The position numbers were made by a program, and so were the translations under genes. Shown one piece after another: positions 1,555 to 48,326 of a DNA stretch of 64,000 nucleotides. The stretch comes from Beroe forskalii (taxonomy: Eukaryota > Ctenophora > Nuda > Beroida > Beroidae), in contig WFMF01000512.1 of the NCBI GenBank assembly GCA_011033025.1, positions 54,681 through 118,680 of the forward strand. Reading direction: 5' to 3'. Every line of letters starts with the position of its first letter. The stretch's first letter is position 1. The notes under the pieces are model-generated. The model did not search any database. It was given only the letters and a program-made list of their open reading frames with translations, and was not told where the DNA came from.

Positions 1555-2258
1555 ATTAAGCCCGCAGGCGCAATTCTTGTTTTTATTTGCATGCTAGCGG
1601 CCTCTGAGTGTGCACTGCGCGCGGCGCCAGCGCATCACTCCTGCGCCAATATAAGACAAATCAAGAAGCCGCGTGTTCCATTCAGTAAATGTCCGAGCTC
1701 AAAATTCAGTAGATTTTCTAGCCCAAAATTGTCATGATTTTACAGGAGTTGTACCTATAATTGATCCTCGACAGAGCATGCGGCGCGTTCCGTAGCTGGA
1801 CACGAACAAGCTCCTTCGAATTTCTAAGATTATCTGCAATCCATATCATGATACGGATATGGTTTCATTCAAGCAAGTAGACAATATTATATTGCGTAAT
1901 CAAGCATCCACTCTTATCAATTGAAATTACGTCAGCCGAAACATAGAACGTGATATCGAGCTGACATAATGCTAGCCGCAAAGCCACAGAGAGCACTTTG
2001 TTGATACTTTGTTGATTCTACATGTCGATCTACCTATTGATCCTCGACAAAGCATGTCGCGCATTCCGTAAGGAACGAATTTCTGAGAATATCAGCAAAT
2101 ATCATGATACGGATAAGGTTTCATCCAATCAAGCAGGCGACTCGGCGTGATCTATTACCCACTTTGCTCACCACTGCAGATATGGTGACTGGAGGTCCTG
2201 ACGGGAACTGCAAATTGCCTGGGCAAACTGCAAAATTTCTTAGATTGCAGAACAAATT
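1555..2258. other. Outer flank of left arm, 3' of the gene copy
   Basis: This segment is closely matched by 50011-50707. It contains an internal direct duplication of about 115 bp (about 1741-1880 and 2033-2130), recognisable by TATCATGATACGGATA(A/T)GG and by the shared ATTGATCCTCGACA. Read on the minus strand it would be downstream of the last exon. An AATAAA hexamer on that strand near 1590 could serve as a polyadenylation signal, as in the right arm. TTAA stands exactly at the arm edge (1556-1559). Confidence 0.6.
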
Positions 2259-2402
2259 TCATGGATGTTGCATCAAATCGACAAATCTGCAGTTTGTTCG
2301 AGTGCCATAGCATTCAAGACAAGCCTTATGGTCCTAAGTGCAGTTTGTTTCTTCATCTTCACAAGAAATTAGAAAATCTTGTTCTTCAGGAATTTCTGGG
2401 GT
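2259..2402 (-). pseudogene. Probable last exon of left GT31 copy, with in-frame stop
   Basis: Positional counterpart of 49867-50010. On the minus strand an AG acceptor (CCATAG) precedes a frame that starts in phase 0, matching the phase in which exon 3 ends. The reading begins TPEIPEEQDFLISCEDEE, but codon 23 is TAG where the right arm has TTG (Leu), which would remove the last 25 residues. The other coding differences from the right arm (TTA/CTA and CAG/CAA) are silent. Assignment as the terminal exon rests on phase, position and arm conservation; I do not recognise its sequence as a GT31 tail. It could instead be intronic. Confidence 0.38.
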
Positions 2403-2671
2403 CTATGGTTTTGTAGTTGATATTATGGTTCCAATCAATTTATTCATGTTTGAACCCCTGGCTTCTTGGGGCTGCGCCCCAAGACCCCTGCCCTGTAGAA
2501 AATGCCCGACCTATTCATCTGCCAATAGCTTTTGCGAACGAAGTGGCGCGAAGCGCCGCCGAGTGAGCTACAAGCTGCTAGATTTTCTCGGGAACTGCAA
2601 AATAATCTGCACCTATGACTTTGCTCTGTGATAATTACGTCCTAAAATTTAGAATTTATTATTAAGCAGAC
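2403..2671. other. Intron 3 segment with GC hairpins
   Basis: Mirrored at 49587-49866. Two small hairpins stand out: TTGGGGC-TGC-GCCCCAA near 2470 and GGCGC-GAA-GCGCC near 2545. Open frames here on the plus strand are antisense to the gene copy and are not supported as genes. Confidence 0.5.
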
Positions 2672-4543
2672 ATAATAAGAGAGCACACCAAACTACACAA
2701 CATAGTAACATAGTACACAACATAGTAACATACCTCTGCGTGATAGGAGAGCACACCAAACTACACAACATAGTAACATACCTCTGCGTGATAAGAGAGC
2801 ACACCAAACTACACAACATAGTAATACCTCTGCGTGATAAGAGAGCACACCAAACTACACAACATAGTAACATACCTCTGCGTGATAAGAGAGCACACCA
2901 AACTACACAACATAGTAACATACCTCTGCGTGATAAGAGAGCACACCAAACTACACAACATAGTAACATACCTCTGCGTGATAAGAGAGCACACCAAACT
3001 ACACAACATAGTAACATACCTCTGCGTGATAAGAGAGCACACCAAACTACAACATAGTAACATACCTCTGCGTGATAAGAGAGCACACCAAACTACACAA
3101 CATAGTAACATACCTCTGCGTGATAAGAGCACACCAAACTACACAACATAGTAACATACCTCTGCGTGATAAGAGAGCACACCAAACTACACAACATAGT
3201 AACATACCTCTGCGTGATAAGAGAGCACACACCAAACTACACAACATAACATAGTAACATACCTCTGCGCGTGATAAGAGAGCACCAAACTACACACAAC
3301 ATAGTAACATACCTCTGCGTGATAAGAGAGCACACCAAACTACACAACATAGTAACATACCTCTGCGTGATAAGAGAGCACACCAAACTACACAACATAG
3401 TAACATACCTCTGCGTGATAAGAGAGCACACCAAACTACACAACATAGTAACATACCTCTGCGTGATAAGAGAGAGAGCACACCAAACTACACAACATAG
3501 TAACATACCTCTGCGTGATAAGAGAGCACACCAAACTACACTTGAACATAGTAACATACCTCTGCGTGATAAGAGAGCACACCAAACTACACAACATAGT
3601 AACATACCTCTGCGTGATAAGAGAGCACACCAAACCACAACATAGTAACATACCTCTGCGTGATAAGAGAGCACACCCAACTACACAGCATAGTAACATA
3701 CCTCTGCGTGATAAGAGAGTTACAACAAACTACACATAGTAACATACCTCTGCGTGATAAGAGAGCACACCAAACCACAACATAGTAACATACCTCTGCG
3801 TGATAAGAGCACACACCAAACTACACAACATAGTAACATACCTCTGCGATAAGAGAGCACACCAAACTACACAACATAGTAACATACCTCTGCGTGATAA
3901 GAGAGCACACCAAACTACACAACATAGTAACATACCTCTGCGTGATAAGAGAGCACACCAAACTACACAACATAGTAACATACCTCTGCGTGATAAGAGA
4001 GCACACCAAACTACACAACATAGTAACATACCTCTGCGTGATAGGAGAGCACAACAAACTACACAACATAGTAACATACCTCTGCGTGATAAGAGAGCAC
4101 ACCAAACTACACAACATAGTAACATACCTCTGCGTGATAAGAGCACACCAAACTACACAACATAGTAACATACCTCTGCGTGATAAGAGCACACCAAACT
4201 ACACAACATAGTAACATACCTCTGCGTGATAAGAGAGCACACCAAACTACACAACATAGTAACATACCTCTGCGTGATAAGAGAGCACACCAAACTACAC
4301 AACATAGTAACATACCTCTGCGTGATAAGAGAGCACACCCAACTACACAACATAGTAACATACCTCTGCGTGATAAGAGAGCACACCAAACTACACAACA
4401 TAGTAACATACCTCTTGATAAGAGCACACCCAACTACACATACCACTGCGTGATAAGAGAGCACACCAAACTACAACATAGTAACGTGATAAGAGAGCAC
4501 ACCAAACTACCGCGTAACCTCTGCGTGATAAGAGAGCACACCC
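2672..4543. repeat. 48-bp minisatellite A, left arm (about 39 copies)
   Basis: The unit reads CATACCTCTGCGTGATAAGA on the plus strand and continues with GAGCACACCAAACTAC. On the minus (gene) strand each unit holds the last 23 bases of exon 3, ending CACGCAGAG, then the intron start gtatgtta. The array therefore abuts and is derived from the exon 3 donor junction. Forty-eight is divisible by three, so all frames tend to stay open; short indels shift them. Its counterpart is 45688-48326 plus 49408-49586. Confidence 0.95.
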
Positions 4544-4605
4544 ATGTACGCGTCTTCTACTAGGAAAAGTTCTTGGTTTCCTGAGAAGTGGACAGCCAGC
4601 ATTTT
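4519..4605 (-). CDS. GT31 glycosyltransferase, exon 3 (left copy)
   Basis: An 87-bp, 29-codon exon in phase 0/0. The minus-strand acceptor is CCATTTCAG at 4606-4614 and the donor after GAG is gttacg (GT kept, weaker than the gtatgt of the array). It encodes KMLAVHFSG followed by ELFLVEDAYMGVLSYHAE. The ED-x-Y-x-G block is the C-terminal catalytic motif of GT31 galactosyl- and N-acetylglucosaminyltransferases, Golgi type II membrane enzymes that transfer a sugar from a UDP donor. It joins exon 2 without a frame break. Three differences from the right copy (CTA/CTT, GTA/GTC, GAA/GAG) are all silent. Acceptor sugar and donor cannot be told from the sequence. Confidence 0.85.
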
Positions 4606-4691
4606 CTGAAATGGAAATTTCATACTCTCATAATATTGTGTTAATATTATATCGGGTGGCCCGATAAGTTAACAAAGAATACGTAGTCATA

Positions 4692-4904
4692 GCGATACTG
4701 GCTTGATACTGGTCTGATACTGGTGTGATACTGGTGTGATACTGGCGTGATAATGGTCTGATACTGGCGTGACACTGGCCTGATACTGGCTTGATACTGG
4801 TGTGATACTGGCCTGATACTGGAGTGATACTGGCGTGATACTGGCTTGATACTGGTGTGATACTGGCCTGATACTGGAGTGATACTGGCGTGATACTGGC
4901 CTGG
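4692..4904. repeat. 11-bp minisatellite, left arm (about 20 copies)
   Basis: Tandem TGATACTGG followed by two variable bases, in intron 2 of the left gene copy. The right arm has about 59 copies of the same unit at 44895-45542. No function visible. Confidence 0.92.
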
Positions 4905-5310
4905 ACAGATCGCTCAATTTACCAATATAGTCATGTCTACTTGCTAAGGTTATCTGAGATAAGAGGGAAAGCTCGTCAAGGTCAAGTCCCAGTATAATTT
5001 TCTGTATGACATCTGTGTGAGCTTTGACCAGAACGATTCAGTGCTGAGTTCAAAGTAGCTGAATACTTCGGATGCCGAGGTAGTAGATGAGGCTGAGAAA
5101 TGCCTTGAAGGAAAGCCTCTTCCGTTGTTATGTTGTTGGTGCACTTCTTGCAGATGTTTCACTTCCAAACTCATAGGTATGCAGACTCGGAAGCGGCACA
5201 GGTAACCGCAGCCACATTGTATGTCTCATAACATCCCGTTGGAGGAAGAAGCTGCATCTTCTGAAGAGGTGAGCTGAACGATCTCGTCGTGTGGCCTCGG
5301 TAGAGTAGAA
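4905..5310. other. Conserved intron 2 segment with a 74-codon open frame
   Basis: Mirrored at 44484-44894. Both copies keep an open frame (minus strand 4950-5174 here) beginning MSLEVKHLQEV. The amino-acid differences between arms (for example N/S, F/S, T/N, L/P) are all replacements, unlike the GT31 exons, so this does not look constrained as protein. Confidence 0.5.
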
Positions 5311-6452
5311 GCCTTAGGTCCGCCTTACGTCCGCTGAAGCGAGGCTGCCTTACGTCCGCTGAAGCGAGGCTGCCTTACGTCCGCTGAAGCGAGGCTGCCT
5401 TACGTCCGCTGAAGCGAGGCTGCCTTACGTCCGCTGAAGCGAGGCTGCCTTACGTCCGCTGAAGCGAGGCTGCCTTAGGTCCGCTGAAGCGAGGCTGCCT
5501 TAGGTCCGCCTTAGGTCCGCTGAAGCGAGGCTGCCTTACGTCCGAAGAAGCGAGGCTGCCTTAGGTCCGCCTTACGTCCGCTGAAGCGAGTCTGCCTTAC
5601 GTCCGAAGAAGCGAGGCTGCCTTAGGTCCGCTGAAGCGAGGCTGCCTTACGTCCGCTGAAGCGAGGCTGCCTTAGGTCCGCCTTACGTCCGCTGAAGCGA
5701 GTCTGCCTTACGTCCGAAGAAGCGAGGCTGCCTTAGGTCCGCCTTACGTCCGCTGAAGCGAGTCTGCCTTACGTCCGCTGAAGCGAGGCTGCCTTACGTC
5801 CGCTGAAGCGAGGCTGCCTTACGTCCGCTGAAGCGAGGCTGCCTTACGTCCGCTGAAGCGAGGCTGCCTTACGTCCGCTGAAGCGAGGCTGCCTTACGTC
5901 CGCTGAAGCGAGGCTGCCTTAGGTCCGCTGAAGCGAGGCTGCCTTAGGTCCGCCTTACGTCCGCTGAAGCGAGTCTGCCTTACGTCCGAAGAAGCGAGGC
6001 TGCCTTAGGTCCGCTGAAGCGAGGCTGCCTTACGTCCGCTGAAGCGAGGCTGCCTTACGTCCGCTGAAGCGAGGCTGCCTTAGGTCCGCCTTACGTCCGC
6101 TGAAGCGAGTCTGCCTTACGTCCGCTGAAGCGAGGCTGCCTTGGGTCCGCTGAAGCGAGGCTGCCTTAGGTCTGCTGAAGCGAGGCTGCCTTACGTCCGC
6201 TGAAGCGAGTCTGCCTTACGTCCGCTGAAGCGAGGCTGCCTTAGGTCCGCTGAAGCGAGGCTGCCTTACGTCCGAAGAAGCGAGGCTGCCTTAGGTCCGC
6301 TGAAGCGAGGCTGCCTTACGTCCGCTGAAGCGAGGCTGCCTTACGTCCGCTGAAGCGAGGCTGCCTTACGTCCGCTGAAGCGAGGCTGCCTTACGTCCGC
6401 TGAAGCGAGGCTGCCTTACGTCCGCTGAAGCGAGGCTGCCTTAGGTCCGCCG
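5311..6452. repeat. 25-bp minisatellite, left arm (about 44 copies)
   Basis: The unit is CGTCCGCTGAAGCGAGG followed by CTGCCTTA. Variants contain an extra 10-bp GTCCGCCTTA(G) module, apparently an internal unequal duplication. Lies in intron 2; counterpart 43787-44483 with about 28 copies. Confidence 0.93.
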
Positions 6453-6517
6453 AAGATGAGTCGGCGTTCCTCCAGACTGCCAGAAAGTTTGCGTAAAGTA
6501 ACGTGGATTTGGACATA

Positions 6518-7449
6518 GGGCGTTCGGAAATGATTGTCACTACAGGCATAAAATGACAAATATGACCAAAAATATCAAAATTTCAACATATTCGAGTACA
6601 AGGGACTCTACCAGACTGAATTGCAAATTTTCAGTGTTAACGAAGATTTTTGAGTGGGTCATCTAGCTTGTTTTTTGATTGTTTTCAGGTGCTCCGCTGT
6701 ATGGCGAATTCTACATCTTCTAGGCCATGTTTTTATGGTCCGATTTCACTATTCAGGACATATTCAGGGCCTTCAGGTCCAAAACTAAAGAATAGGATGA
6801 TTGGTTTACATCCGGGGCAAATTTCTGTACAATTTAACCCTGCATTATTGATAATGAGTAGAGCTAAAAAGTGGCAAATTTAACAGTTCAGTAACCGATA
6901 ATGCAGTACACAGCTAGCACACACGTTTCTGATGTTAAGAAAATTAGTCAAAATCTTAAAAATGGTTGTCTCGTGTACGGAAGGGTCTGAACTAATATCC
7001 TAACACGATAACCGAAGGTTTCAAGTTATTTAAATGTTGTATTTCTGGGCAATTGCCAGAGCAAAAGTTGCAACAGCCTTTTCTGGAGCATATCCTTTTT
7101 GAGGTCAAAGCACCCCTTAGGATTATTTCATCTCGACGAAAAACAGTCCATTTGTTCCAGTTAGCATCCACATGTGCTGCAACAGCCTCATTTTGATTAT
7201 CTCACACTTCTTGGGTCCGTTGATAGCCCGTTTTCTTTGACAACGAAATTTGTGGTCAGTTTCGTACAGCGGAGCAAATAATTATAAATTTGAATCTGCT
7301 GTAGAATGGGCTAAGAAAACTTAGTTATCGGTAAAACCCGATTATCTCAATCCAAAAATGTCTGAAAAAAAAGAATAACACATCAAAAAGTCACTCCCGA
7401 CAGTCACTTTCTCCAGAAAATTGCAAGTGACAATCTCTTCCGAACGTAC
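6518..7449. mobile_element. Non-autonomous TIR element in left intron 2
   Basis: Present in the left arm and absent at the matching right-arm site near 43722. The termini are inverted repeats: GGGCGTTCGGAAATGATTGT at the left and GTACGTTCGGAAGAGATTGT (reverse complement) at the right. TA stands at both edges (6516-6517, 7450-7451), with a small ATA difference from the empty site. No transposase frame was found in its 932 bp. A Tc1/mariner-like TA target is possible but unproven. Confidence 0.7.
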
Positions 7450-7969
7450 TAATATATTTTATCAGAAGCTTTTGAGCTTTTGATATTTTGTTACTAGAAA
7501 AATTGGCCTTTACAACAAGGGGAATGGCAAGATCAGTTATTATTACGAGACGGATAAACAACTTCCTAGAAACGTATGCGAACTCGAAACTGGCAAGCTT
7601 TAACACTTTAACATTAAAAACCCAAGACTTGAACATTTATTAAAAACCAAAGACTCACATACGAAATACAGATTGTGGCCTGTAGCGGAAATTTTCCAAG
7701 TGGACTAAAGAGTGTGCGAATTCAAACTGAAATCTGTAAACCTCATGAAATGTTGTAAATTTTCTTCAACTAATCTTTATTAATTCGCTCCCTTCGTAAC
7801 ATGATCTGGACCCACACCAAAGCTACATTGCGCGGTACGCTGTTATCAACGCACTACATAACGCTATGACCATGACAACTTCCTATTCACCTATTTCTCC
7901 TCTTGGAAAATTACTCTTCAAAGATTAGAAAAACATGCGCATGAAAAGAAAGAAAAGAGATAAATCGGT
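7450..7969. other. Intron 2 segment, mirrored in right arm
   Basis: Matches 43230-43722 inverted. An open frame on the minus strand here is broken by indels in the other arm, so it is not supported as coding. Confidence 0.5.
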
Positions 7970-8577
7970 TACTTATAGTGTCACAACTTCACCACTTTAA
8001 GCAGTGACTTACAGTGTCACAACTTCACCACTTTAAGCTGTGACTTATAGTGTCACAGCTTCACCACTTTAAGTTGTGACTTATAGTGTCACAGCTTCAC
8101 CACTTTAAGCAGTGACTTATAGTGTCACAACTTCACCACTTTTAGCAGTGACTTATAGTGTCACAACTTCACCACTTTTAGCAGTGACTTATAGTGTCAC
8201 AGCTTCACCACTTTAAGTTGTGACTTATAGTGTCACAACTTCACCACTTTTAGCAGTGACTTATAGTGTCACAACTTCACCACTTTAAGCTGTGACTTAT
8301 AGTGTCACAACTTCACCACTTTTAGCAGTGACTTATAGTGTCACAGCTTCACCACTTTATGTTGTGACTTATAGTGTCACAGCTTCACCACTTTAAACTG
8401 TGACTTATAGTGTCACAACTTCACCACTTTTAGCAGTGACTTATAGTGTCACAGCTTCACCACTTTAAGTTGTGACTTATAGTGTCACAGCTTCACTACT
8501 TTAAGCTGTGATTTATAGTGTCACAACTTCAACACTTTTAGCTGTGACTTATAGTGTCACAGCTTCACCACTTTTAG
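7970..8577. repeat. 36-bp minisatellite, left arm (about 17 copies)
   Basis: The unit is GTGACTTATAGTGTCAC followed by a variable TTCACCACTTT(A/T)AGC stretch. Each copy contains an imperfect palindrome, TGTGAC-ACTATAA-GTCACA on the other strand. In intron 2; right-arm counterpart 41978-43229 with about 35 copies. Confidence 0.93.
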
Positions 8578-9072
8578 ATGGAATGGCCAAAACACAGTTA
8601 AATGTTGAGTATACATGTGTGTAGTGGCACACCTCTCAATGAGGGAACGTGCCATGGTAATGTGGAGAGTGGATACGTAGGAGTAATGTCTAGCTGTACT
8701 GCAGAGTGGTGTTCTATGTGGTACTTTGGACTCAGGAGCCACGGAGAGTGGTGTTTTATCAAGAAATCAACTATATAAGGAATTCAAGGGAATTGTGAAG
8801 GAAAGGGTTTAAATCGTAGGCTGTAATTGCATATAACGTGGTGATAGCAATGGCCTGTATACGGAGTAAGAATTCCTTCTTTAACAGCAAGGATCTCCAC
8901 TGCCCGGGCCTATAGGCGCATTGCACATAGCCATTACTATAACACGACACATAAGCTGTATATTTAATACCCTCTTCAGCCCTCTTCGGGTTGGTAATGT
9001 TTCCTTACGTTTGACAGTACAGTAGCATTTAATATCCGATGATGCTATAAGCAACACCACCCTAAAGCTTAC
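8578..9072. other. Intron 2 start, left copy
   Basis: Non-repetitive sequence matching 41429-41977 inverted. No exon seen in it. On the minus strand it starts with the gtaagc donor of exon 2. Confidence 0.55.
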
Positions 9073-9163
9073 CTCTATCGCTGGCTTGTTGAGTGTGTAA
9101 CCACCCCCAGAACAGTAAGGCGGGAATTTATCTGGTTCCCACGCAGTCCTTGACACTTCATAC
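9073..9163 (-). CDS. GT31 glycosyltransferase, exon 2 (left copy)
   Basis: A 91-bp exon that supplies the last base of a split Arg codon and 30 further codons. Minus-strand acceptor CTACTTTTCAG; donor GAG|gtaagc. The translation runs YEVSRTAWEPDK then FPPYCSGGGYTLNKPAIE. The W-x-P-x4-P-P-Y-C-S-G-G-G-Y block is highly characteristic of GT31 beta-1,3-galactosyltransferases. Phase fits exon 1 (ends GGCAG) and exon 3 (starts AAA). Only one base differs from the right copy (AAC/AAT, both Asn). Its first 28 bases and acceptor are the source of array B, which sits directly upstream. Confidence 0.87.
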
Positions 9164-11858
9164 CTGAAAAGTAGGTGGCGTTATTCCCACGCAGTCCTTG
9201 ACACTTCATACCTGAAAAGTAGGTGGCGTTATTCCCACACAGTCCTTGACACTTCATACCTGAAAAGTAGGTGGCGTTATTCCCACGCAGTCCTTGACAC
9301 TTCATACCTGAAAATTAGGTGGCGTTATTCCCACACAGTCCTTGACACTTCATACCTGAAAAGTAGGTGGCGTTATTCCCACGCAGTCCTTGAAACTTCA
9401 TACCTGAAAAGTAGGTGGCGTTATTCCCACACAGTCCTTGACACTTCATACCTGAAAAGTAGGTGGCGTTATTCCCACGCAGTCCTTGACACTTCATACC
9501 TGAAAGTAGGTGGCGTTATTCCCACACAGTCCTTGACACTTCATACCTGAAAAGTAGGTGGCGTTATTCCCACGCAGTCCTTGACACTTCATACCTGAAA
9601 AGTAGGTGGCGTTATTCCCACGCAGTCCTTGACACTTCATACCTGAAAAGTAGGTGGCGTTATTCCCACGCAGTCCTTGACACTTCATACCTGAAAAGTA
9701 GGTGGCGTTATTCCCACGCAGTCCTTGACACTTCATACCTGAAAAGTAGGTGGCGTTATTCCCACGCAGTCCTTGACACTTCATACCTGAAAAGTAGGTG
9801 GCGTTATTCCACGCAGTCCTTGACACTTCATACCTGAAAAGTAGGTGGCGTTATTCCCACGCAGTCCTTGACACTTCATACCTGAAAAAGTAGGTGGCGT
9901 TATTCCCACGCAGTCCTTGACACTTCATACCTGAAAAGTAGGTGGCGTTATTCCCACGCAGTCCTTGACACTTCATACCTGAAAAGTAGGTGGCGTTATT
10001 CCCACGCAGTCCTTGACACTTCATACCTGAAAAGTAGGTGGCGTTATTCCACGCAGTCCTTGACACTTCATACCTGAAAAGTAGGTGGCGTTATTCCCAC
10101 GCAGTCCTTGACACTTCATACCTGAAAAGTAGGTGGCGTTATTCCACGCAGTCCTAGACACTTCATACCTGAAAAGTAGGTGGCGTTATTCCCACGCAGT
10201 CCTTGACACTTCATACCTGAAAAGTAGGTGGCGTTATTCCCACGCAGTCCTTGACACTTCATACCTGAAAAGTAGGTGGCGTTATTCCCACGCAGTCCTT
10301 GACACTTCATACCTGAAAAGTAGGTGGCGTTATTCCCACGCAGTCCTAGACACTTCATACCTGAAAAGTAGGTGGCGTTATTCCCACGCAGTCCTTGACA
10401 CTTCATACCTGAAAAGTAGGTGGCGTTATTCCCACGCAGTCCTAGACACTTCATACCTGAAAAGTAGGTGGCGTTATTCCCACGCAGTCCTTGACACTTC
10501 ATACCTGAAAAGTAGGTGGCGTTATTCCCACGCAGTCCTTGACACTTCATACCTGAAAATTAGGTGGCGTTATTCCCACGCAGTCCTTGACACTTCATAC
10601 CTGAAAAGTAGGTGGCGTTATTCCCACGCAGTCCTAGACACCTCATACCTGAAAAGTAGGTGGCGTTATTCCCACGCAGTCCTTGACACTTCATACCTGA
10701 AAAGTAGGTGGCGTTATTCCACGCAGTCCTTGACACTTCATACCTGAAAAGTAGGTGGCGTTATTCCACGCAGTCCTAGACACTTCATACCTGAAAAGTA
10801 GGTGGCGTTAATCCCACGCAGTCCTTGACACTTCATACCTGAAAAGTAGGTGGCGTTATTCCCACGCGCAGTCCTTGACACTTCATACCTGAAAAGTAGG
10901 TGGCGTTATTCCCACGCAGTCCTTGACACTTCATACCTGAAAAGTAGGTGGCGTTATTCCCACGCAGTCCTTGACACTTCATACCTGAAAAGTAGGTGGC
11001 GTTATTCCCAGGCAGTCCTTGACACTTCATACCTGAAAAGTAGGTGGCGTTATTCCCACGCAGTCCTTGACACTTCATACCTGAAAAGTAGGTGGCGTTA
11101 TTCCCACGCAGTCCTTGACACTTCATACCTGAAAAGTAGGTGGCGTTATTCCCACGCAGTCCTAGACACTTCATACCTGAAAGTAGGTGGCGTTATTCCA
11201 CGCAGTCCTTGACACTTCATACCTGAAAAGTAGGTGGCGTTATTCCCACGCAGTCCTTGACACTTCATACCTGAAAAGTAGGTGGCGTTATTCCCACACA
11301 GTCCTTGACACTTCATACCTGAAAAGTAGGTGGTGTTATTCCCACGCAGTCCTTGAAACTTCATACCTGAAAAGTAGGTGGCGTTATTCCCACGCAGTCC
11401 TTGACACTTCATACCTGAAAAGTAGGTGGCGTTATTTCCACGCAGTCCTAGACACTTCATACCTGAAAAGTAGGCGGCGTTATTCCCACGCAGTCCTTGA
11501 CACTTCATACCTGAAAAGTAGGTGGCGTTATTCCCACGCAGTCCTTGACACTTCATACCTGAAAAGTAGGTGGCGTTATTCCCACGCAGTCCTTGACACT
11601 TCATACCTGAAAAGTAGGTGGCGTTATTCCACGCAGTCCTAGACACTTCATACCTGAAAATTAGGTGGCGTTATTCCCTGCAGTCCTTGACACTTCATAC
11701 CTGAAAAGTAGGTGGCGTTATTCCCACGCAGTCCTTGACACTTCATACCTGAAAAGTAGGTGGCGTTATTCCCACGCAGTCCTTGACACTTCATACCTGA
11801 AAAGTAGGTGGCGTTATTCCCACGCAGTCCTTGACACTTCATACCTGAAAAGTAGGTG
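9137..11858. repeat. 48-bp minisatellite B: amplified splice acceptor plus exon start (about 57 copies)
   Basis: On the minus strand each unit is a pyrimidine-rich tract and AG acceptor (CTACTTTTCAG) followed by the first 28 bases of exon 2 (GTATGAAGTGTCAAGGACTG and on) and a 9-base linker before the next tract. The right arm has a single copy (about 41326-41367), so the array expanded after the inverted duplication. Several copies are 47 or 50 bp, so frames change along the array. Open frames of 60-204 codons within it are repeat artefacts. Confidence 0.95.
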
Positions 11859-12493
11859 TTTTTATTACCTAGTAGGTGTTTTCATTACCTACTAAGAAAA
11901 GTAATAGTATTACATATTGATAACTCCCTAACTGTACAGTTATCAAACCTTTGGAAAAATTATCGCGACCCAAGATTTCGGGATTTTTAAGACTTATGAA
12001 ATGTGTTTACTGTCTCTCAAAATTTATAATTTTCGAGCCCGTTATATGTCAAAAATTGTCGGAGTCAAAATTATACTATTATATAACGATCGTGGCCAGT
12101 GTGGAATGGTTTGGGTGACCTTTTTTCTTAGTATTGATAACCTGTGACTACTACAGTAGAATTTAAGAATTGAACTAAAATGCACATTTCGTCTTATCTA
12201 TAATCTTATCATAGTTCAAATAAAAAGTCACGAAACACCCTCAATCTCAGCTAGTGGTTTGCCCATTCACATGATTTCAATAGAGGGATGATAGATCTGT
12301 TGAGAGTCTAAAATTAAGATAATTCGAAGTGAATGGTGATCAGAACATCGACATAACGCCGTGTTTTATAAAGAATCTCAGTTAGACATCACAAGATTTG
12401 ATGATAAAGCATGAAATTAACTATCCATTATTCATCTCCCTTGGAAAAAAAAGGGCAGAGAAGGTAGGTAAATGAAATTTAAATCTCATTCAC
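11859..12493. other. Intron 1 remainder, left copy
   Basis: Matches 40711-41325 inverted with few changes. On the minus strand it begins with the exon 1 donor gtgaat. No exon seen. Confidence 0.55.
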
Positions 12494-12640
12494 CTGCCTT
12501 GTCTGAACACTGGCATGCCGCCGAACCTGACTCCCCCATAAAATGGCTTGGAAGTGTCTTGCTGCTTCATCAGCTCGTGGTACTTAGACATGTTTATTAT
12601 CGTGTCATCATCACACTTTATTATTGCATCGAAGTCGTAC
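12494..12640 (-). CDS. GT31 glycosyltransferase, exon 1 of window (left copy)
   Basis: A 147-bp exon (one base, 48 codons, two bases). Minus-strand acceptor CTTCTATCGCAG; donor GGCAG|gtgaat. It encodes YDFDAIIKCDDDTIINMSKY and ends with PFYGGVRFGGMPVFRQG plus a split Arg. The DDD at residues 10-12 is the family's metal- and UDP-sugar-binding acidic motif; FYGGV is the next conserved strand. Two differences from the right copy (CAA/CAG, CCA/CCG) are silent. The 69-codon plus-strand frame over the same bases is its antisense shadow. Upstream exons (membrane anchor and first half of the catalytic domain) were not found in the window. Confidence 0.88.
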
Positions 12641-12717
12641 CTGCGATAGAAGTATGGTTTTCATTATTCAAAAAACAATAGATTAATGATGAGATGTTTC
12701 AGAAATTAGAATCTTTA

Positions 12718-14957
12718 TATCAAGAGATTAAGGAAAGAGGCGAATTGCTCATTCGCCGGGTACTGCTGCAATTACATTGCTTTGCTACCAAACACCCGCT
12801 TATACTGCTGCAACTGGTCTAACTCTCTGGTAGACTACTCACCAGCGCGGTGGTCGGAACTCTGATGACCCTACGACTCAACGAAAACACAACAAAGTAA
12901 CGAAGTAAGTTACCCCATTCACCTATAATTGGTACCTTTCTGACCCACAACTTCTACCCATTCCAATATTGGTACCTTTCTGACCCACAACTTCTACCCA
13001 TTCTAATATTGGTACCCTTTTACCTTTTTAAACTAATAGTAACACTTCTACCCATCCCACTACATAATCTTTGTTTGACTTATCGCTGTTAGACTAATAA
13101 TATATTGTGATAAAATTAATCGTTGTTAAGGTAAAAAAGCATGATTGAAAACTGAAAAGTTACAAAGTTACAATGGATACTGGATAATCATACATTCACA
13201 TCCACGCCAGCTCATTCAAGACGCATTTGGGATGGCTCTGGTGTGACAAGATAGACACAAATACTGCATGTACAAAAGCATGGTGGACAACGAAATTCCC
13301 CGTAAACCTGTTAATTACGAACTCATGAAATGCATAAACATACAGTAATTAATACTGACATATGAATTAGTGAATGATGAGTTTACTAGGTCAAGTAAAA
13401 TGTTCAATCCAAATCTGCATGGGAATATCTTTGGATAGATTTGATGAATGGAGATAGCTCATATATATCTTCAATGCTAGTTATGCCATTCGACCCAATG
13501 ACCTCCGAGAGTTACTAGCAATGAGGTTATCACTTTAAAGCAACTTCATTTCAAGGCAGAAATCATCTGATACTGTCGTAGAAATTACCAAAATGCAACC
13601 CAAAAAAACCTAGCCCAAGAATCGTAAAAGTAGGCCATGGCTTGGTTTTTTGGGTTGCAAACCCCCCCTATTCCTCTATTCTAACGTTTTAGTCAGACAA
13701 GCTGACTGCCCCATGGGGTAAGAAAAGAGGGAAAGAGAGGAGATGAGGGTTTTAAACTTAACAACACTTCTCATTATAATCAAATTTGAGCAGCAAGGTT
13801 TACAACGTTACTGCAAGAAATGCAAGAATTGGTAAAGAAAAATTGTGTTTCATATTGTTTACTCGAAAGTTTTACTTCTATTCCAACAGCTGTACAGCCA
13901 ATGACAGAAATCGAAAGGTCCAAGTGATCAAGCCAGTTACGGTTAAGGAAGTGTAATCCATACTTTCTTCGCCCGAGACTTCGCTGCAATTGGCAGCTCC
14001 TCATTTACCCCTTCTGCACACTGCAAAGTTTCTTCTACACTAGGCTGATTGAACTGTTGATGCTCGGAAGACTATCATCAAGCTACAGTCTAAGCAAATG
14101 TCGAATGTCGGTGAAGGATGAACAGATGGACAGTATCAGGACAGTGTCGAGCACAGTAGAGGAGATCAAATCCTACAGCGCAGCAGTTCAAGGCAGTGTG
14201 AAGGAGAATCCTGTCAGCCAGACTGTGTTGAAGAAGGTTGTTCAGGAAGTTGTTTAGGGAGAGTACCGCGCCAAGAATGTGATGATCTTTGGCCTCGAAG
14301 AAGAAACTGAAGAAGATGTGGGTGTCAAGGTGAACGAGATTCTTCAGTTATTGGGAGAAAAACCCCATGTTGAAGCTTGTCGCGTTGGACAGAGGAAGTC
14401 CAGCGGCAGATCTGCAAGACCTGCAAAAGTCACAACAGCTTTGCCCACAGTTGCGGACCAGATACTTGTCATGTCTTGCTTTCTTAGATAAGTACAACAG
14501 CGTAGGGAGCAGGTTAAGGAAGTGAAATGTTTGTCAGAAGAGTAAAAAGAAAAGAGACACTACATAAAGAACGGGCGAGTTTGCAGTGTTCAAAGGAGTT
14601 CAACATAGTGACCTATGTACTTTGTGATAATCGGTCGGAGACTTTCTTGGTTTCATATTCTGATTTTGAATCTAGTTGACTGAGTTTGTAAGTGTTCTTA
14701 GTTTCTTGGGCAGAGAACACAAGACTTGATAGTCTTCGCATTAATTTAATAATTAACACTGAACAAGTAGAGTCAAAATCCCTTTTGAAGTCATTTTTGG
14801 TGTGCTGTGCCCTGCAAAGGGATTTTATGTTTCATATGTTTTATACAATATTTTTCCTTTCAAAGCCCTTAGTGGTACCCCAAGTGGGTTTTCAATCAGA
14901 GAAGATCAGGAGAGGGTATCTTGGTGGGTGGAGACCAGCAAGAGGAGGGGGTCCTGC
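12718..14957. mobile_element. Left-arm insertion carrying a LINE ORF1 remnant
   Basis: The matching right-arm site (near 40481) reads straight through, so about 2.2 kb were inserted on the left or lost on the right. No terminal inverted repeats are evident; AT flanks both sides. The segment contains the ORF1-like pseudogene at 14060-14608. Around 13940-13985 it shares a stretch (AAGGAAGTGTAATCCAT) with 20850-20880. Confidence 0.65.
14060..14608 (+). pseudogene. Non-LTR retrotransposon ORF1-like fragment
   Basis: One continuous frame interrupted by three stops (at 14255-14257 and two downstream). Recognisable pieces are RAKNVMIFGLEEETEED, the following LLGEKPHVEACRVGQRK, and the tail RHYIKNGRVCSVQ. 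This order is that of ORF1-type proteins that accompany reverse transcriptases in CR1/L2-like LINEs of invertebrates; the identification is from memory of the family. No reverse transcriptase follows. Fragmentary and inactive. Confidence 0.55.
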
Positions 14958-15382
14958 ATTTTAAGCAGTGGCACCTTGGGTAGGCTTGCAGCTCCACACC
15001 TCATGATGCAGGTATTACTACAATGAGAGGTTGCAGGGCGCTGCATGGGCCCTCCCAGGCCCATCCCCCGCTTAGTAGTAGAGAGGTTGCAGATTGCACG
15101 TATCAATAAACTCTGGAGCTATTCCAACATGGAAAAGTTGAGGAAAACCTGGCACAACTCCAGCATGAGGTTAGTCCCTCTTTAGTGTGTAATGGCATGG
15201 ACTTACCATGAGTTAAGTCCCCCCTTGCCTCCCAGTAAATATACCAGTAATTCCCGGTAACTTAAAGCGCTTTCTTAATTGCTGTTTTTATTAATAATCA
15301 GGAGCAGAGTACTGGGTAATGTTACATTCAGAACTTAGGTTTGACTGTTTTATCTTTATGACGTTTTTGCCTCAAATTCATA
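14958..15382. other. Inner end of left arm, single 56-bp unit
   Basis: Matches 38400-38700 and 40419-40481 inverted. It contains one copy (15025-15091) of the 56-bp unit that is amplified in the right arm. It lies upstream of exon 1 on the gene strand, and no exon was recognised. Confidence 0.65.
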
Positions 15383-15668: not shown

Positions 15669-16776
15669 TATTACTATATTAGAATTGATTATACAATCAA
15701 CCTGTTTGCAGCCCATTCAATGAGCCATAGAGATTTGTACACAAGATTCTTGTATGAATCAGAAAAATCGCCAATAAGAACATCACCACATTCCTTCGAC
15801 TCCTCTAATACAGCAGCATTAACTTCAGGGCTTTCTGTTTGACCTGAAGATGTTCTTCAAGTTGAATCTAATGAATGACCATCTGAATAAGAAGATATGC
15901 AATTGAGTATTATATTATATCTATTCTTATTTGCATACTACAGTACAGGGGTCAGGGTTGCTGTAATAGTATCAACCATGTATCCATAGTTAGTATATAA
16001 AGGTACACCATTACAGGAAATTAAGCTTTCACATAATTAATGGGGATGGAGGTTTACCAATGAATCAGATATATTAAAAAAAGTAAATTACACAGATACT
16101 ATTGGACTCGGGTATTTGATTCAGGGCTCCAAAATTTCTTTAGCCCATTTGCCTAGTAGATGTTGAGTTGAGGACACTTTAAAAAAATTGATTCAATAGT
16201 TTGAGACTTTACCTACAACAAAGAAGTGTTTCCAGTCAATAAGCTTGCCATCAGAATCTGTCCAATTATAAGCCCAATACCCATCTTTTCTTAATAAATC
16301 CCTAATTTCCCTCTTATGTGGTGTTGATATTACAAACACCATGTATTGTACATAGTCTGTTCTGAGGAAGATGTCATTATTGTTTTGAATGAATAAAAAT
16401 TTCAGAGTCAGTACTTAGCAGAAAAGCAAAGTGAGAGAGAGGATTATTATACTTAATTTAAGGTACATAATGGTACATGCTTGTATACCTAATAAAATAC
16501 CTCAATCTCAATTCATACAATACTTACTTTTTTTAATGCATCAGCAAATAACTGACTTATTTCATTAGATCTCTGATTTATAGAGCTTTCTAAATTTCTA
16601 TTTTGACTCCCCTTTAATCTGTTTCGTAAGCTCCTGATAAAAAGATAGGTGAATAGGATGAATGGTTGCTTCTCCTCACGATCACACCATATTATTGAAT
16701 ACTTGTAGCCCAAAAAAGCATTCATTATAATGTCATTTATTGAATAGAAAAAATACTTCTAGCTTTTTTATAACAT
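15669..16776. other. No feature recognised
   Basis: AT-rich unique-looking sequence. Short open frames only; no splice-flanked exon or family match seen. Confidence 0.4.
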
Positions 16777-20575: not shown

Positions 20576-20904
20576 TGAAAAAATTCACCTGATAAAAAGT
20601 TGGAGTTTCATTCTGGGAAGGAATAAATAATATCTGAATGTTTTATGAATATGTGAGAAGGTTGATCCACTATTTTCAGCTGTACTCACTTCTGCTTGCA
20701 TATACAAGGTCTGCCAAAGGTGCTCAAATTACACAGATCAATAAGAGTAGGACTGTAACATAGTGTCAAGTAACTAGTAAACTAGGTCTGACAACTCACT
20801 ACAGTAGCTCATAGAGTCATAGGTCCTAGATCCACAAAACACTTAATAAGGAAGTGTAATCCATTCTTTATTCACCCTAGACTTTGCTGGATCTAGGACC
20901 TATG
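20576..20904. other. No gene recognised
   Basis: Unique-looking sequence. Near 20850-20880 it shares about 45 bp with 13940-13985. Confidence 0.4.
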
Positions 20905-21607: not shown

Positions 21608-22129
21608 ACCAAAAAACGTTCTCAAACCTAGTGACAAAACTAGTGTGCACACTATGTTACAGTTCAGGGCATTATATACGACCCTAACAAAGCAAATTTA
21701 CATATTGAAATATGGAAATTAACTCATAAGTAAACAATCACACACAACTTTACTAGAATAACCAATTAACAGGAATTGAACAATACATGCAGCATCTGGT
21801 AAATTTAACTGTACATACCATAAACTTGAATTGACGTTCAGGTTGATATTCAATAATACAATATTACATTAAGTGCTAAACATCTTACCTGAATAATCAT
21901 AACTGATACCAAGCCACACAATATAAGAAATGATAGGAAAATAAGTTTTGTCAGTTTCATGATTCATGGACTCTGCTACCCTGATAAAGAATATTAGTTC
22001 AATGTTTAGGTGGTTTCATCGTTCCTCATCAATCAAATGAACTGATCAAATGAAAAACGTGCACAATAGTTAAATAAATTATTAGTAAAACTATGATTTG
22101 TATTTATAGCTCAGAGCAATTTTCTTTAT

Positions 22130-24178: not shown

Positions 24179-25751
24179 TCAGACCTTATAAATGCCATAG
24201 TCTAAGCTATTCCAGAACATTTTTCCCCACTCTAATGGATCACCTTCCGACTGAATTTTTAGGATCTGCTCTTTGAGTTTTGATTTAATTGACAGCTCTT
24301 TAGAATTTAGGTCATGAACTTTAATAATATCTCTAACAACATTCCAGATGAGGCTTGCATAATAAATAAATTCATTTGAGGGGGCAGGAGTTACCAGTAA
24401 AGTTGATTTGCCAGCTCCCTGTGAGAACTTGAGGAGTTCAAAAATACTTATTGAGTTATTGGGGTTCTGAATTTAAGAATTTTAAATATATCATTAGCAC
24501 AGTGATAAACATACAAGTTTCTGACATTCATTATTGACTTAGAATTAAATAAGGGTTTCGTGTGTTCACGTTTATAGAACTCAGCACTTAGTTCTTGTTG
24601 ATCAAATTCACGAGTTCTTGCACAAGTTTTGAACTTATCTACATAAGCTTCTTTATCTCCAAACAAAATTCTCATGCACTTTTTTTGCATTTTGAATAAA
24701 GCATCAATTTTGTAATTTTTTTCGCCGCCCCATACAGTTATACCATAGGCAAGGTGACTTTCAAAGAGAGTGTAGTATATATCTTTATGAAGTTCAGCCG
24801 GAATGTTGTCTTTTATTGAGTTTATGATTCCTGCACTACAAGAAAGCTTTTTAGATAGCTTAGTTATATGAGCATTCCAATTGAGATTTTCATCAATTAT
24901 TACACCAAGAAATTTTGTTTCTGTTGCTCGTTTCACAGCAATGTCCTGTATTTTCACTGTAAATTTAAGACTATCCTCCTCAGTTCCCATTGGTTTGAAG
25001 TCAATGAAGCAGCACTTGGACATATTTATATGCAGTCTATTCAGTAACATATAGGTACTTAATGACTGTAGTATTTTGTTAGCCTGTTGATATGCAGTTT
25101 CCTTGTTCCTTGCAGTAATAAAATATTAGTGTCATCAGCAAATAATATAAACTCTGAATTATCATCTACTTTTGAGATATCATTGATGTATATCAAAAAT
25201 AACAGTGGTCCAAGGCAACTTCCTGTGGGACTCAAATATGACTGGGAGGTTATTGGATGTATCTCCAAGAATGCTCACATATTGCTTTCTGTCGGATAAG
25301 TAACTTTCGATTAGCCTTTGTGGCACTCCACGTATGCCATAAGTTTCTAGCTTCTTGAGTAATATGTCATGATCAATTGTGTCAAATGCTTTGCTTAAGT
25401 CTATGAATATGCCTAACACATGTTTGTTATCCTTCAATGACTTTTTAATGTGATTGATTGAGTAGTTAAGAGCATGTGATGTTGAGTGACCTTTCCGGAA
25501 CCCAAATTGATTTTTATGGATCATTCCATTAGAAGCAAAGAACCCGTAAAGCCGAGTATAGATGACTTTTTCAAAAATTTTACTAAATATTGGAAGGGTT
25601 GACACAGGCCTATAATTTTCAAGTAGGCAGGACCTGGTGGAGTTGTCCTGGCTATCTGAATGCCATTGAGAGGAGTATCACCATGGTTGATGTCAAGACT
25701 GTTGATCAATGAAGCCATCTTTTTATGAGTGAGGATTTCCCCAAGCATCAA
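24179..25751 (-). pseudogene. Decayed non-LTR retrotransposon reverse transcriptase
   Basis: The minus-strand order is that of a Jockey/CR1-like LINE reverse transcriptase: NYRPVSTLPIFSKIFEKVIY, QFGFRKGHSTSHAL, FIDLSKAFDTIDHDILL, then SCLGPLLFLIYINDI, FADDTNI (the catalytic acidic pair), KFLGVIIDENLNW, and a C-terminal thumb region ending at a TGA at 24179-24181. At least four frameshifts break it (near 25610, 25270, 25130 and 24460), so no full-length protein can be made. The endonuclease domain and ORF1 are absent. Truncated at the 5' side, as LINE copies usually are. Confidence 0.88.
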
Positions 25752-32424: not shown

Positions 32425-32898
32425 CTGTGCTTCTTATTAATGTCCACCCTTAGATAGCCGGAATATTTCAATACTTCTTGAGCTCTTCTTTATGTTAGTG
32501 TTGCGTAAAAACGTAAGTAGTATGTACATTGTACATGCGGTGTGAAATATTTTACAAAGGAGCACGCCGCTCACAATCAGAGAATTCAAAACATGATTAT
32601 CAACGCTTGAGCCGTTTTCTAATGTCTTGAAGATTCTCAGCGCTTCTGATTCTATTTGCATATGTAAATATTAATACGCCGTACAGCTCACTTCTTTTAT
32701 TTAATGAGTAATAACTTAATTTTGTTACTTCAACCTTGATATGAAATTTAGAGTGAAATTTCAAACACCACTTTAAGTTTAATTTGTTTAGAAATTGGTT
32801 TGAGAGTGTGAGCTATAAAACAAGTTGAAGTAATGTCAGCTGATTCAGAGTACCTTTGTACGCTATGTGAACGCCATAGCGGTGCAGTTTGCCGCTTA

Positions 32899-35226: not shown

Positions 35227-35456
35227 TTAGAAGAGAATAATTTAGTAATTTCACGGTGTGCGCCTCGCTGCCCCCTCCTGTGCTACTGAGGAATAGACGT
35301 CACCAACTCTCCATTATAAACCCTGGTAATGACGTCATCCACGAACTCCTGCGCAGGAATTAATTCCAACTAATTCCCCTGATCACGCCTCGTGTAATAT
35401 TTCTGAAATTATCTGCCGCTTCACAGCTGTTGTTTCTAGGAACCACAGTTCTAAGA

Positions 35457-35660
35457 GTGACGTCATTATCATAGCTTAACATGGTGTGTTAATGATGTCA
35501 TTATCACATCTTAACATGGTGCGTTGATGACGTCATTATCACATCTTAACATGGTGTGTTAATGACATCATTATCACATCTTAACATGGTGTGTTAATGA
35601 CATCATTATCACATCTTAACATGGTGTGTTAATGACGTCATTATCACATCTTAACATGGT
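35457..35660. repeat. 35-bp repeat with CRE-like sites, Y copy 1 (about 6 copies)
   Basis: Unit ATGGTG(T/C)GTT(A/G)ATGA followed by (C)GTCATTATCACATCTTAAC. Several copies contain the perfect octamer TGACGTCA. Related arrays at 57579-57709 and, inverted, at 60789-60900. Confidence 0.9.
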
Positions 35661-40563: not shown

Positions 40564-40710
40564 GTACGACTTCGATGCAATAATAAAGTGTGATGATGAC
40601 ACGATAATAAACATGTCTAAGTACCACGAGCTGATGAAGCAGCAGGACACTTCCAAGCCGTTTTATGGGGGAGTCAGGTTCGGCGGCATGCCAGTGTTCA
40701 GACAAGGCAG
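40564..40710 (+). CDS. GT31 glycosyltransferase, exon 1 of window (right copy)
   Basis: A 147-bp exon with acceptor CTTCTATCGCAG|G and donor GGCAG|gtgaat. Same 48-residue product as the left copy: YDFDAIIKCDDDTIINMSKY at the start, PFYGGVRFGGMPVFRQG at the end. DDD is the metal/UDP-sugar site expected about two-thirds of the way through the family's catalytic domain, so roughly half of the domain plus the Golgi signal anchor must lie in exons not seen here. Between-arm changes are both third-position and silent. It could be a complete gene with distant 5' exons or a 3'-partial duplicate. Confidence 0.88.
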
Positions 40711-41337
40711 GTGAATGAGACTTAAATTTCATTTACCTACCTTCTCTGCCCTTTTTGTTTTTCCAAGGGAGGTGAATTATGGATAGTTAATTTCATGCTT
40801 TGTCATCAAATCTTATGAAGTCTAACTGAGATTCTTTATAAAACACGGCGTTATGTCGATGTTCTGATCACTATTCACTTCGAATTATCTGAATTTTAGG
40901 CTCTCAACAGATCCATCATCCCTCTCTTGAAATCATGTGAATGGGCAAACCACTAGCTGAGATGGAGGGTGTTTCGTGACTTGTGATTTGAACTATGATA
41001 AGATTATAGATAAGACGAAATGTGCATTTTAGTTCAATTCTTAAATTCTACTGTAGTAGTCACTGGTTATCAATACTAAGAAAACAAGACACCCAAACCA
41101 TTCAACACTGGCCACGATCGTTATATAAATTTGACTCCGACAATTTTTGACATACAACGGGCTCGAAAATTATAAATTTTGAGAGACAGTAAACACATTT
41201 CATAAGTCTTAAAAATCCCGAAATCTCGGGTCGCGATAATTTTTCCAAAGGTGTGATAACTGTACAGTTAGGGAATTATCAATAATATGTGATACTATTA
41301 CTATCCTTAGTAGGTAATGACAACACCTACTTTTCAG
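40711..41337. other. Intron 1, right copy
   Basis: 627 bp, matching the left intron apart from array B. It keeps the single ancestral acceptor CTACTTTTCAG. Confidence 0.75.
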
Positions 41338-41428
41338 GTATGAAGTGTCAAGGACTGCGTGGGAACCAGATAAATTCCCGCCTTACTGTTCTGGGGGTGG
41401 TTACACACTCAATAAGCCAGCGATAGAG
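41338..41428 (+). CDS. GT31 glycosyltransferase, exon 2 (right copy)
   Basis: 91 bp, acceptor CTACTTTTCAG|G, donor GAG|gtaagc (near consensus). Encodes YEVSRTAWEPDK and FPPYCSGGGYTLNKPAIE, the acceptor-side conserved block of GT31 enzymes, with the split Arg codon completing exon 1. In this arm the junction is single copy and shows the unamplified state of array B. One silent difference from the left copy. A methionine-initiated frame through the same bases in another register is a shadow. Confidence 0.88.
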
Positions 41429-45542: not shown

Positions 45543-45623
45543 TATGACTACGTATTCTTTGTTAACTTATCACCCGATATAATACTAACACAATATTATG
45601 AGAGTATGAATTTCCCATTTCAG

Positions 45624-45710
45624 AAAATGCTGGCTGTCCACTTCTCAGGAAACCAAGAACTTTTCCTTGTCGAGGACGCGTACATGGGTGTGCTCTCTTA
45701 TCACGCAGAG
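45624..45710 (+). CDS. GT31 glycosyltransferase, exon 3 (right copy), donor altered
   Basis: 87 bp, acceptor CCCATTTCAG, 29 codons reading KMLAVHFSG then ELFLVEDAYMGVLSYHAE, in phase with exon 2. The base after GAG is A, so the junction reads GAG|atatgt, whereas every following unit of array A reads GAG|gtatgt. If splicing fails here, translation runs ICYYVV and stops. The next intact donor is 48 bases on, beyond that stop. Three silent differences from the left copy, none altering the protein. Confidence 0.83.
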
Positions 45711-48326
45711 ATATGTTACTATGTTGTGTAGTTTGGTGTGCTCTCTTATCACGCAGAGGTATGTTACTATTTTGTGTAGTTTGGTGTGCTCTCTTATCAC
45801 GCAGAGGTATGTTACTATGTTGTGTAGTTTGGTGTGCTCTCTTATCACGCAGAGGTATGTTACTATGTTGTGTAGTTTGGTGTGCTCTCTTATCACGCAG
45901 AGGTATGTTACTATGTTGTGTAGTTTGGTGTGCTCTCTTATCACGCAGAGGTATGTTACTATGTTGTGTAGTTTGGTGTGCTCTTATCACGCAGAGGTAT
46001 GTTACTATGTTGTGTAGTTTGGTGTGCTCTCTTATCACGCAGAGGTATGTTACTATGTTGTGTAGTTTTGTGTGCTCTCTTATCACGCAGAGGTATGTTA
46101 CTATGTTGTGTAGTTTGGTGTGCTCTCTTATCACGCAGAGGTATGTTACTATGTTGTGTAGTTTGGTGTGTTCTCTTATCACGCAGAGGTATGTTACTAT
46201 GTTGTGTAGTTTGGTGTGCTCTCTTATCACGCAGAGGTATGTTACTATGTTGTGTAGTTTGGTGTGCTCTCTTATCACGCAGAGGTATGTTACTATGTTG
46301 TGTAGTTTGGTGTGCTCTCTTATCACGCAGAGGTATGTTACTATGTTGTGTAGTTTGGTGTGCTCTCTTATCACGCAGAGGTATGTTACTATGTTGTGTA
46401 GTTTGGTGTGCTCTCTTATCACGCAGAGGTATGTTACTATGTTGTGTAGTTTGGTGTGCTCTCTTATCACGCAGAGGTATGTTACTATGTTGTGTAGTTT
46501 GGTGTGCTCTCTTATCACGCAGAGGTATGTTACTATGTTGTGTAGTTTGGTGTGCTCTCTTATCACGCAGAGGTATGTTACTATGTTGTTGTGTAGTTTG
46601 GTGTGCTCTCTCTTATCACGCAGAGGTATGTTACTATGTTGTGTAGTTTGTTGTGCTCTCTTATCACGCAGAGGTATGTTACTATGTTGTGTATGGTTTG
46701 GTGTGCTCTCTTATCACGCAGAGGTATGTTACTATGTTGTGTAGTTTGGTGTGCTCTCTTATCACGCAGAGGTATGTTACTATGTTGTGTAGTTTGGTGT
46801 GCTCTCTTATCACGCAGAGGTATGTTACTATGTTGTGTAGTTTGGTGTGCTCTCTTATCACGCAGAGGTATGTTACTATGTTGGTAGTAGTTTGGTGTGC
46901 TCTCTTATCACGCAGAGGTATGTTACTATGTTGTGTAGTTTGGTGTGCTCTCTTATCACGCAGAGGTATGTTACTATGTTGTGTAGTTTGGTGTGCTCTC
47001 TTATCACGCAGAGGTATGTTACTATGTTGTGTAGTTTGGTGTGCTCTCTTATCACGCAGAGGTATGTTACTATGTTGTGTAGTTTGGTGTGCTCTCTGTC
47101 ACGCAGAGGTATGTTACTATGTTGTGTAGTTTGGTGTGCTCTCTTATCACGCAGAGGTATGTTACTATGTTGTGTAGTTTGGTGTGCTCTCTTATCACGC
47201 AGAGGTATGTTACTATGTTGTGTAGTTTGGTGTGCTCTCTTATCACGCAGAGGTATGTTACTATGTTGTGTAGTTTGGTGTGCTCTCTTATCACGCAGAG
47301 GTATGTTACTATGTTGTGTAGTTTGGTGTGCTCTCTTATCACGCAGAGGTATGTTACTATGTTGTGTAGTTTGGTGTGCTCTCTTATCACGCAGAGGTAT
47401 GTTACTATGTTGTGTAGTTTGGTGTGCTCTCTTATCACGCAGAGGTATGTTACTATGTTGTGTAGTTTGGTGTGCTCTCTTATCTTATCACGCAGAGGTA
47501 TGTTACTATGTTGTGTAGTTTGGTGCTCTCTTATCACGCAGAGGTATGTTACTATGTTGTGTAGTTTGGTGTGCTCTCTTATCACGCAGAGGTATGTTAC
47601 TATGTTGTAGTTGGTGCTCTTATCACGCAGAGGTATGTTACTATGTTGTGTGTGTAGTTTGGTGTGCTCTCTTATCACGCAGAGGTATGTTACTATGTTG
47701 TGTAGTTTGGTGTGCTCTCTTATCACGCAGAGGTATGTTACTATGTTGTGTAGTTTGGTGTGCTCTCTTATCACGCAGAGGTATGTTACTATGTTGTGTA
47801 GTTTGGTGTGCTCTCTTATCACGCAGAGGTATGTTACTATGTTGTGTAGTTTGGTGTGCTCTCTTATCACGCAGAGGTATGTTACTATGTTGTGTAGTTG
47901 GGTGTGCTCTCTTATCACGCAGAGGTATGTTACTATGTTGTGTAGTTTGGTGTGCTCTCTTATCACGCAGAGGTATGTTACTATGTTGTGTAGTTTGGTG
48001 TGCTCTCTTATCACGCAGAGGTATGTTACTATGTTGTTTAGTTTGGTGTGCTCTCTTATCACGCAGAGGTATGTTACTATGTTGTGTAGTTTGGTGTGCT
48101 CTCTTATCACGCAGAGGTATGTTACTGTTGTGTAGTTTGGTGTGCTCTCTTATCACGCAGAGGTATGTTACTATGTAGTGTAGTTTGGTGTGCTCTCTTA
48201 TCACGCAGAGGTATGTTACTATGTTGTGTAGTTTGGTGTGCTCTCTTATCACGCAGAGGTATGTTACTATGTAGTGTAGTTTGGTGTGCTCTCTTATCAC
48301 GCAGAGGTATGTTACTATGTTGTGTA
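45688..48326. repeat. 48-bp minisatellite A, right arm (about 55 copies)
   Basis: Unit GTGTGCTCTCTTATCACGCA then GAG|gtatgttactatgttg: exon 3 end, donor and intron start. Most units are identical, and a few have 1-6 bp indels. Interrupted by the transposon at 48327-49407. Confidence 0.95.

Follow-up and report, generated by a model that had tools for sequence, protein, structure and literature searches.

In the ctenophore Beroe forskalii, the 3′ splice site and the first bases of an exon of a GT31 glycosyltransferase gene occur in 57 tandem copies, the last of which is the acceptor of the intact exon itself. This array, termed array B, occupies positions 9136..11858 on the minus strand of the window, i.e., the whole stretch of 64,000 nucleotides analysed here (contig WFMF01000512.1, positions 54,681 to 118,680, assembly GCA_011033025.1; coordinates are those of the window), and it is likely to be a mirage-type minisatellite that is near-neutral, carried in 57 copies on one arm of an inverted duplication, compatible with a normal mature mRNA and devoid of a product of its own. 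Mirage minisatellites were reportedly described in amphioxus by Canestro et al. in 2002. The name was given in amphioxus to tandem duplications spanning an intron-exon boundary, and the published passages used here report unit lengths of 10–160 bp (PMC3087553). Although the initial annotation of this DNA knew of no standard feature class for such an array, the amphioxus mirages, as far as these passages describe them, fit (PMC3087553). We class array B and its kin as mirages in a ctenophore, present in two unrelated gene families and reaching up to 57 copies; among the matches listed from the open-licence literature, no mirages in ctenophores were seen. As a large example of a mirage, array B suggests that dozens of decoy splice sites are tolerable in animal genes. 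It opens two questions to testing: by what means the spliceosome chooses one of dozens of near-identical sites, and whether duplications at boundaries contribute to the growth and gain of introns.

For array B, TRF reported the interval 9136-11858 with a period of 48 bp, 56.9 copies and 97% matches, and 57 acceptors were counted by both fuzzy and exact searches, which bears out the earlier reading of an amplified 3′ splice site and exon start in about 57 copies. An identity of 97% over 2.7 kb shows that the array is no chance match. The 56 spacings between neighbouring acceptors measure 48 bp in 45 cases, 47 bp in eight, and 46, 49 and 50 bp in one case each. On the minus strand the unit is CACCTACTTTTCAG|GTATGAAGTGTCAAGGACTGCGTGGGAATAACGC, and its alignment to the single-copy counterpart on the right arm (41316..41363, plus strand) shows that it comprises 22 bp from the intron end and 26 bp from the exon start, so that it spans a genuine boundary and, with 48 bp, has a size within the 10–160 bp reported for mirages. 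Read from the sequence, array B is shown to be a 48-bp tandem duplication across the intron-exon boundary. At its intron end, TRF and the comparison of the arms revealed a 20-bp two-copy duplication (11851..11891, minus strand), which the right arm does not have. An assembly-wide query, considering the best-scoring candidates and skipping very common words, returned at least 57 matches, 56 of which fall into array B and one into the right arm; further copies of the unit may exist elsewhere in the assembly.

The copy number of array B is taken from one assembly. It is highly improbable that this number is an artefact, whether from inflation of a few real units or from a head-to-head joining of two haplotypes, even though the window is largely palindromic and GT31 gene pairs on two other contigs, C557 and C77, are likewise opposed on one contig: the units differ from one another by many substitutions and indels, both flanks of the array continue like the array-free right arm, and similar arrays are found at other exons.

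The exon behind the array is complete. Exon E2 (YEVSRTAWEPDKFPPYCSGGGYTLNKPAIE; 9073..9163, minus strand, assigned by homology) has its acceptor in the 57th copy of array B, which leaves 56 extra copies, and since the genuine exon is complete behind the last copy (9163-9073), all extra copies are intronic. The array therefore does not end just upstream of the genuine exon, as had been proposed, but its last copy is the acceptor of that exon. The assignment of the exon to GT31 holds, as it agrees with a Pfam match and with homology to other GT31 genes, whereas its designation as exon 2 does not: in the present gene model it is about the seventh coding exon, or the sixth if 20585-20719 is left out.

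The model of the left gene, built with the aid of the paralogue C183, comprises a start-codon exon, seven further exons and a tentative last exon, all on the minus strand. The start-codon exon (21889..21960, donor CAG|GTAAGA) encodes a hydrophobic, signal-anchor-like segment, MKLTKLIFLSFLILCGLVSVMIIQ. It is followed by a probable exon at 20585..20719, which is the least sure one and is 73% identical to the C183 paralogue at the DNA level, and by an exon at 16528..16635, both with approximate edges. For the exon at 16213..16361 (..DYVQYMVFVISTP...FFVVG) and for E0 (15702..15843) the edges were taken from splice signals; within E0, positions 15704-15832 match Pfam PF01762 (GT31, Galactosyl_T). 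E1 (YDFDAIIKCDDDTIIN...; 12494..12640, donor CAG|GTGAAT, by homology) then precedes E2, and E3 (KMLAVHFSGNQELFLVEDAYMGVLSYHAE) lies at 4519..4605. The tentative terminal exon has a right-arm counterpart with an in-frame stop. From the start codon to E3 the left exons remain open when read in the frame corresponding to the paralogue, the joins upstream of 16213-16361 being approximate, and the paralogue has the same exon order, with 60% and 66% identity in the two first-found exons. Moreover, the peptide of the joined exons E1 and E2 aligns unbroken to open frames from further GT31 genes in Beroe forskalii; one such frame, on C312, is matched over residues 1-77 of 79 at 48%, and the 238-aa open frame P0121 (longest contig 1184 bp) aligns to the joined GT31 exons over 196 aa with 0 gaps and 54% identity. 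The alignments with C312 and P0121 support a joining of E1 to E2 at the last AG of array B.

The window contains a large inverted duplication (1555-15382 and 38400-50707), whose main non-array blocks of at least 300 bp are 89-96% identical and whose arms differ in their arrays: a 56-bp array at 38690-40418 is present on the right arm only, and array B on the left arm only. Free of array B, the right arm represents a natural control on the very contig that carries this array. On this arm E1 lies at 40564..40710, E2 at 41338..41428 and E3 at 45624..45710 (all plus strand), and the boundary of E2 is present once, as the initial annotation had stated; the same single-copy state is seen at the corresponding acceptor of the C183 paralogue. 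The two arms of this one window, in a single assembly, thus differ by 57 versus 1 copies. In the inward direction, the right-arm gene copy stops at about 38400, short of E0; since E0 was not found on the right arm, this copy has no 5′ exons.

Over E1–E3 (321 codon bases compared) the arms show six differences, all of which are synonymous and none nonsynonymous, with 66.5 synonymous versus 254.5 nonsynonymous sites (P about 8e-5, or 2.9e-4 with kappa 4); in the intron, 27 of 593 aligned sites differ. As the differences in these exons are all synonymous, the arrays seem to be tolerated. The pattern argues for a protein that would have been constrained since the arms parted. It is ambiguous since the right arm has neither E0 nor the exons upstream of it, and gene conversion or a recent duplication, rather than function of both copies, may be behind it. 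A loss of splicing, which had been considered as a consequence of the array, is argued against by the synonymous pattern, even if it may still occur. In line with this, pseudogene status of the left gene, with array B as the outcome of drift in dead DNA, is unlikely: such a decay would be favored by the weak or altered first donors of array A in both arms (see below) and by the right copy without 5′ exons, but the left exons are open from the start codon to E3 in the frame of the paralogue, and E1–E3 differ between the arms synonymously only.

With regard to splicing, all 57 copies of array B share an invariant core, CAG|GTATGA, and because it is kept, each copy constitutes an acceptor and a possible donor. 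E1 ends in CAG, so that its joining to any copy recreates the donor-like CAG|GTATGA; as this junction is recreated at each step, whole units could be shed stepwise with the mRNA unchanged. We infer a normal mature mRNA despite the array, which might be reached by two routes. In the first, the last acceptor, whose distance to the donor of E2 equals a normal exon, would be chosen. In the second, any copy would be used and its AG|GT core would then act as donor for the next step, each step removing whole units and leaving the exon junction unchanged. Either route, as we judge, would leave array B passed over.

The units themselves are mostly non-coding in frame, because the linker brings a stop. 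Without further splicing, 47 of the 57 acceptors lead to a stop after 10 codons, the product being R-YEVSRTAWE-stop or a near relative of it; reading from the acceptors covered no more than about 110 codons. If single units were used leakily, a short, early-stopped product would result. The use of alternative acceptors, which the initial annotation had considered, may occur in array B, where these 47 would run into the early stop. A regulatory role could be built on this, in which decoy acceptors compete, early-stop isoforms set expression and the copy number tunes the output, and both the early stop of most acceptors and the core kept in every copy would suit it. We regard such a role as quite unlikely, however. 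Array B is missing from the right arm and from the corresponding acceptor of the paralogue and is therefore no fixed part of the GT31 gene family. Furthermore, the units are too alike to reveal a protection of the splice core by selection, and since variants are inherited by copying, the columns of their alignment are not independent. The array is probably selectively near-neutral.

A mirage-type origin of array B can be outlined as follows. The first duplication probably arose between two near-repeats, intronic GGTAA and exonic GGGAA, which are the likely breakpoints, and slippage or unequal exchange would then have expanded the array to 57 copies. The linker of the units, AATAACGCCACC, appears to resemble AATAAAAACACC in the left-arm intron.

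Array B shares several features with known systems. In the passages of the amphioxus reports used here, mirages are listed for Adh3, the globins BflGb6 and BflGb9, TnC and PGBD5, and RT-PCR suggested that they leave regular splicing undisturbed (PMC3087553, PMC3902484). As described there, these mirages and array B have in common short units across the boundary, a genuine exon that is kept and AG/GT signals in many of the units, and in amphioxus as in Beroe forskalii both 3′ and 5′ boundaries are affected. BflGb6 comes close to array B, as the 3′ end of an intron and the 5′ part of the exon are duplicated, but the two haplotypes described for BflGb6 contain 6 and 3 units compared to 57 here. 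The phylum is a different one (Ctenophora), and array B is described from its sequence, whereas RT-PCR was applied to amphioxus mirages. A second parallel is the dual-specific array of polyubiquitin UBC, in which, according to the portion of the report considered, each unit also contains an AG|GT core that could act as acceptor or donor and the junction stays the same when whole units are removed (PMC10809524). The AG|GT core is present in 57 of 57 units of array B, for which a dual use is predicted. In contrast to array B, where the linker introduces a stop in most units, those of UBC are protein-coding and retained in varying number (PMC10809524). Similarly, the ratchet points of recursive splicing, as outlined in the cited section, juxtapose an acceptor and a donor-like sequence as does TTTTCAG|GTATGA; array B differs in that it would place 57 of them in a row in steps of 48 bp, the last being that of a coding exon (PMC8605326). 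Finally, boundary tandem repeats were reported in recently duplicated human genes of segmental duplications, a setting that resembles the one found here; the human repeats are, in the part of the report used, linked to novel introns, whereas the intron of array B exists without the array (PMC2812944). The formation of a new intron by an AGGT tandem duplication inside an exon was considered and rejected for array B, since the intron is present, and the array absent, both in the right arm and in the C183 paralogue.

Array A concerns the 5′ splice site of E3. In both arms its 48-bp unit spans and repeats the E3 donor (...SYHAE|GTATGTTACTATG). On the left arm, this donor mirage extends over 2714..4518 (minus strand) including degenerate copies up to E3, with TRF reporting 36.1 copies at 2714-4440; on the right arm (45687..48326, plus strand) 54.9 copies were found. 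The first E3 donor is GTTACG on the left and ATATGT instead of GTATGT on the right. As the left donor is weak, the 3′ part of the left gene may splice uncleanly. In the C183 paralogue, E3 is followed by a decayed second copy of the array A unit, suggesting that the initial duplication may be older than the divergence of the paralogues. In the C183 paralogue the E2 donor is also repeated, 6.5 times in units of 57 bp.

Further boundary arrays were found in GT31 and in myosin genes. A myosin gene on C225 contains an acceptor array of 8.1 copies with 34-bp units, CGTGTTTCAG|TTCAACCCG, which reproduce the acceptor CGTGTTTCAG|TTCAACTCG belonging to exon FNSFEQLCINLTNEKIQQFF, and a myosin exon on C785 shows a donor duplication of 2.2 copies. 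In other myosin stretches, a 16-bp array (L061, 237-1096) adjoins an acceptor and contains no exon, one array in L060 and two small arrays in L062 are without exon sequence, and another array in L064 ends 6 bp from the edge of a match. On C557, two gene copies each carry a 55-bp array of about 26 units that overlaps the beginning of the GT31 match. It resembles an acceptor array, but an exon upstream of it was not identified. The GT31 gene pairs on C557 (L011 and L012) and on C77 (L015 and L016) are each arranged in opposite orientation on one contig. A 66-bp array on C77 (L015) was rejected as a splice-site array, as it overlaps the end of the coding sequence and the stop codon. In L039, a 33-bp repeat of four copies (1342-1473) lies within the GT31 open frame and, being in frame, represents a coding minisatellite.

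Whether arrays accumulate at exon edges was evaluated statistically, with mixed results. In the two GT31 genes, which were chosen post hoc and have several approximate edges, three of 12 arrays with a period of at least 15 and at least three copies span an exon edge, as counted by hand from the coordinates, compared to 0.36 expected (P 0.0044). For myosin, five stretches with 59 match edges were analysed, an array being scored as touching an edge within 3 bp and as spanning it by at least 3 bp. Among arrays of at least two copies, four of nine touch an edge (expected 0.53, P 0.0009) and one of nine spans it (expected 0.34, P 0.29); among those of at least three copies, two of five touch (expected 0.26, P 0.023) and one of five spans (expected 0.15, P 0.14). 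The counts for the GT31 genes and for touching arrays are thus suggestive of an excess, and the strict spanning test shows none in the five myosin stretches. As match ends are not exact exon ends, the strict test missed a 22-bp donor duplication of 2.2 copies (L063) by about one base. A more general proposal would be that exon-intron boundaries in the genome of Beroe forskalii are hot spots of minisatellite birth, at which the arrays persist since AG|GT cores make each unit removable stepwise, and introns grow splice-neutrally by nearly any number of units; we regard it as tentative and rather unlikely.

Several observations concern the remaining window and the genome. Positions 24448-25677 contain two open frames that, by their motif, presumably belong to a non-LTR reverse transcriptase, which they resemble. 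The segments 30649-36669 and 54324-59345 carry like-ordered arrays with units of 12 bp (AATACTGACCTT), 35 bp (TGACGTCATTATC) and 18 bp (GTATAACTATTGCTGTAG), and this order suggests a further direct duplication. The assembly comprises 216 Mb, i.e., more than twice the 91.6 Mb given for the B. ovata assembly in the excerpt cited (PMC11184263). C1134 is the mitochondrial genome of 13.3 kb with 17.5% G+C, in which TGA is read as tryptophan and no tRNA genes were found; its COI shows 100% identity to the Beroe forskalii sequence. In the absence of tRNA genes, in having one coding strand only and in its genetic code, it corresponds to what has been published, as given in the section considered (PMC6991124). 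At the end of the window, about 220 units of a 10-bp repeat (61774-63981) stop no more than 20 bases before the contig ends, and this repeat may have stopped the assembly there.
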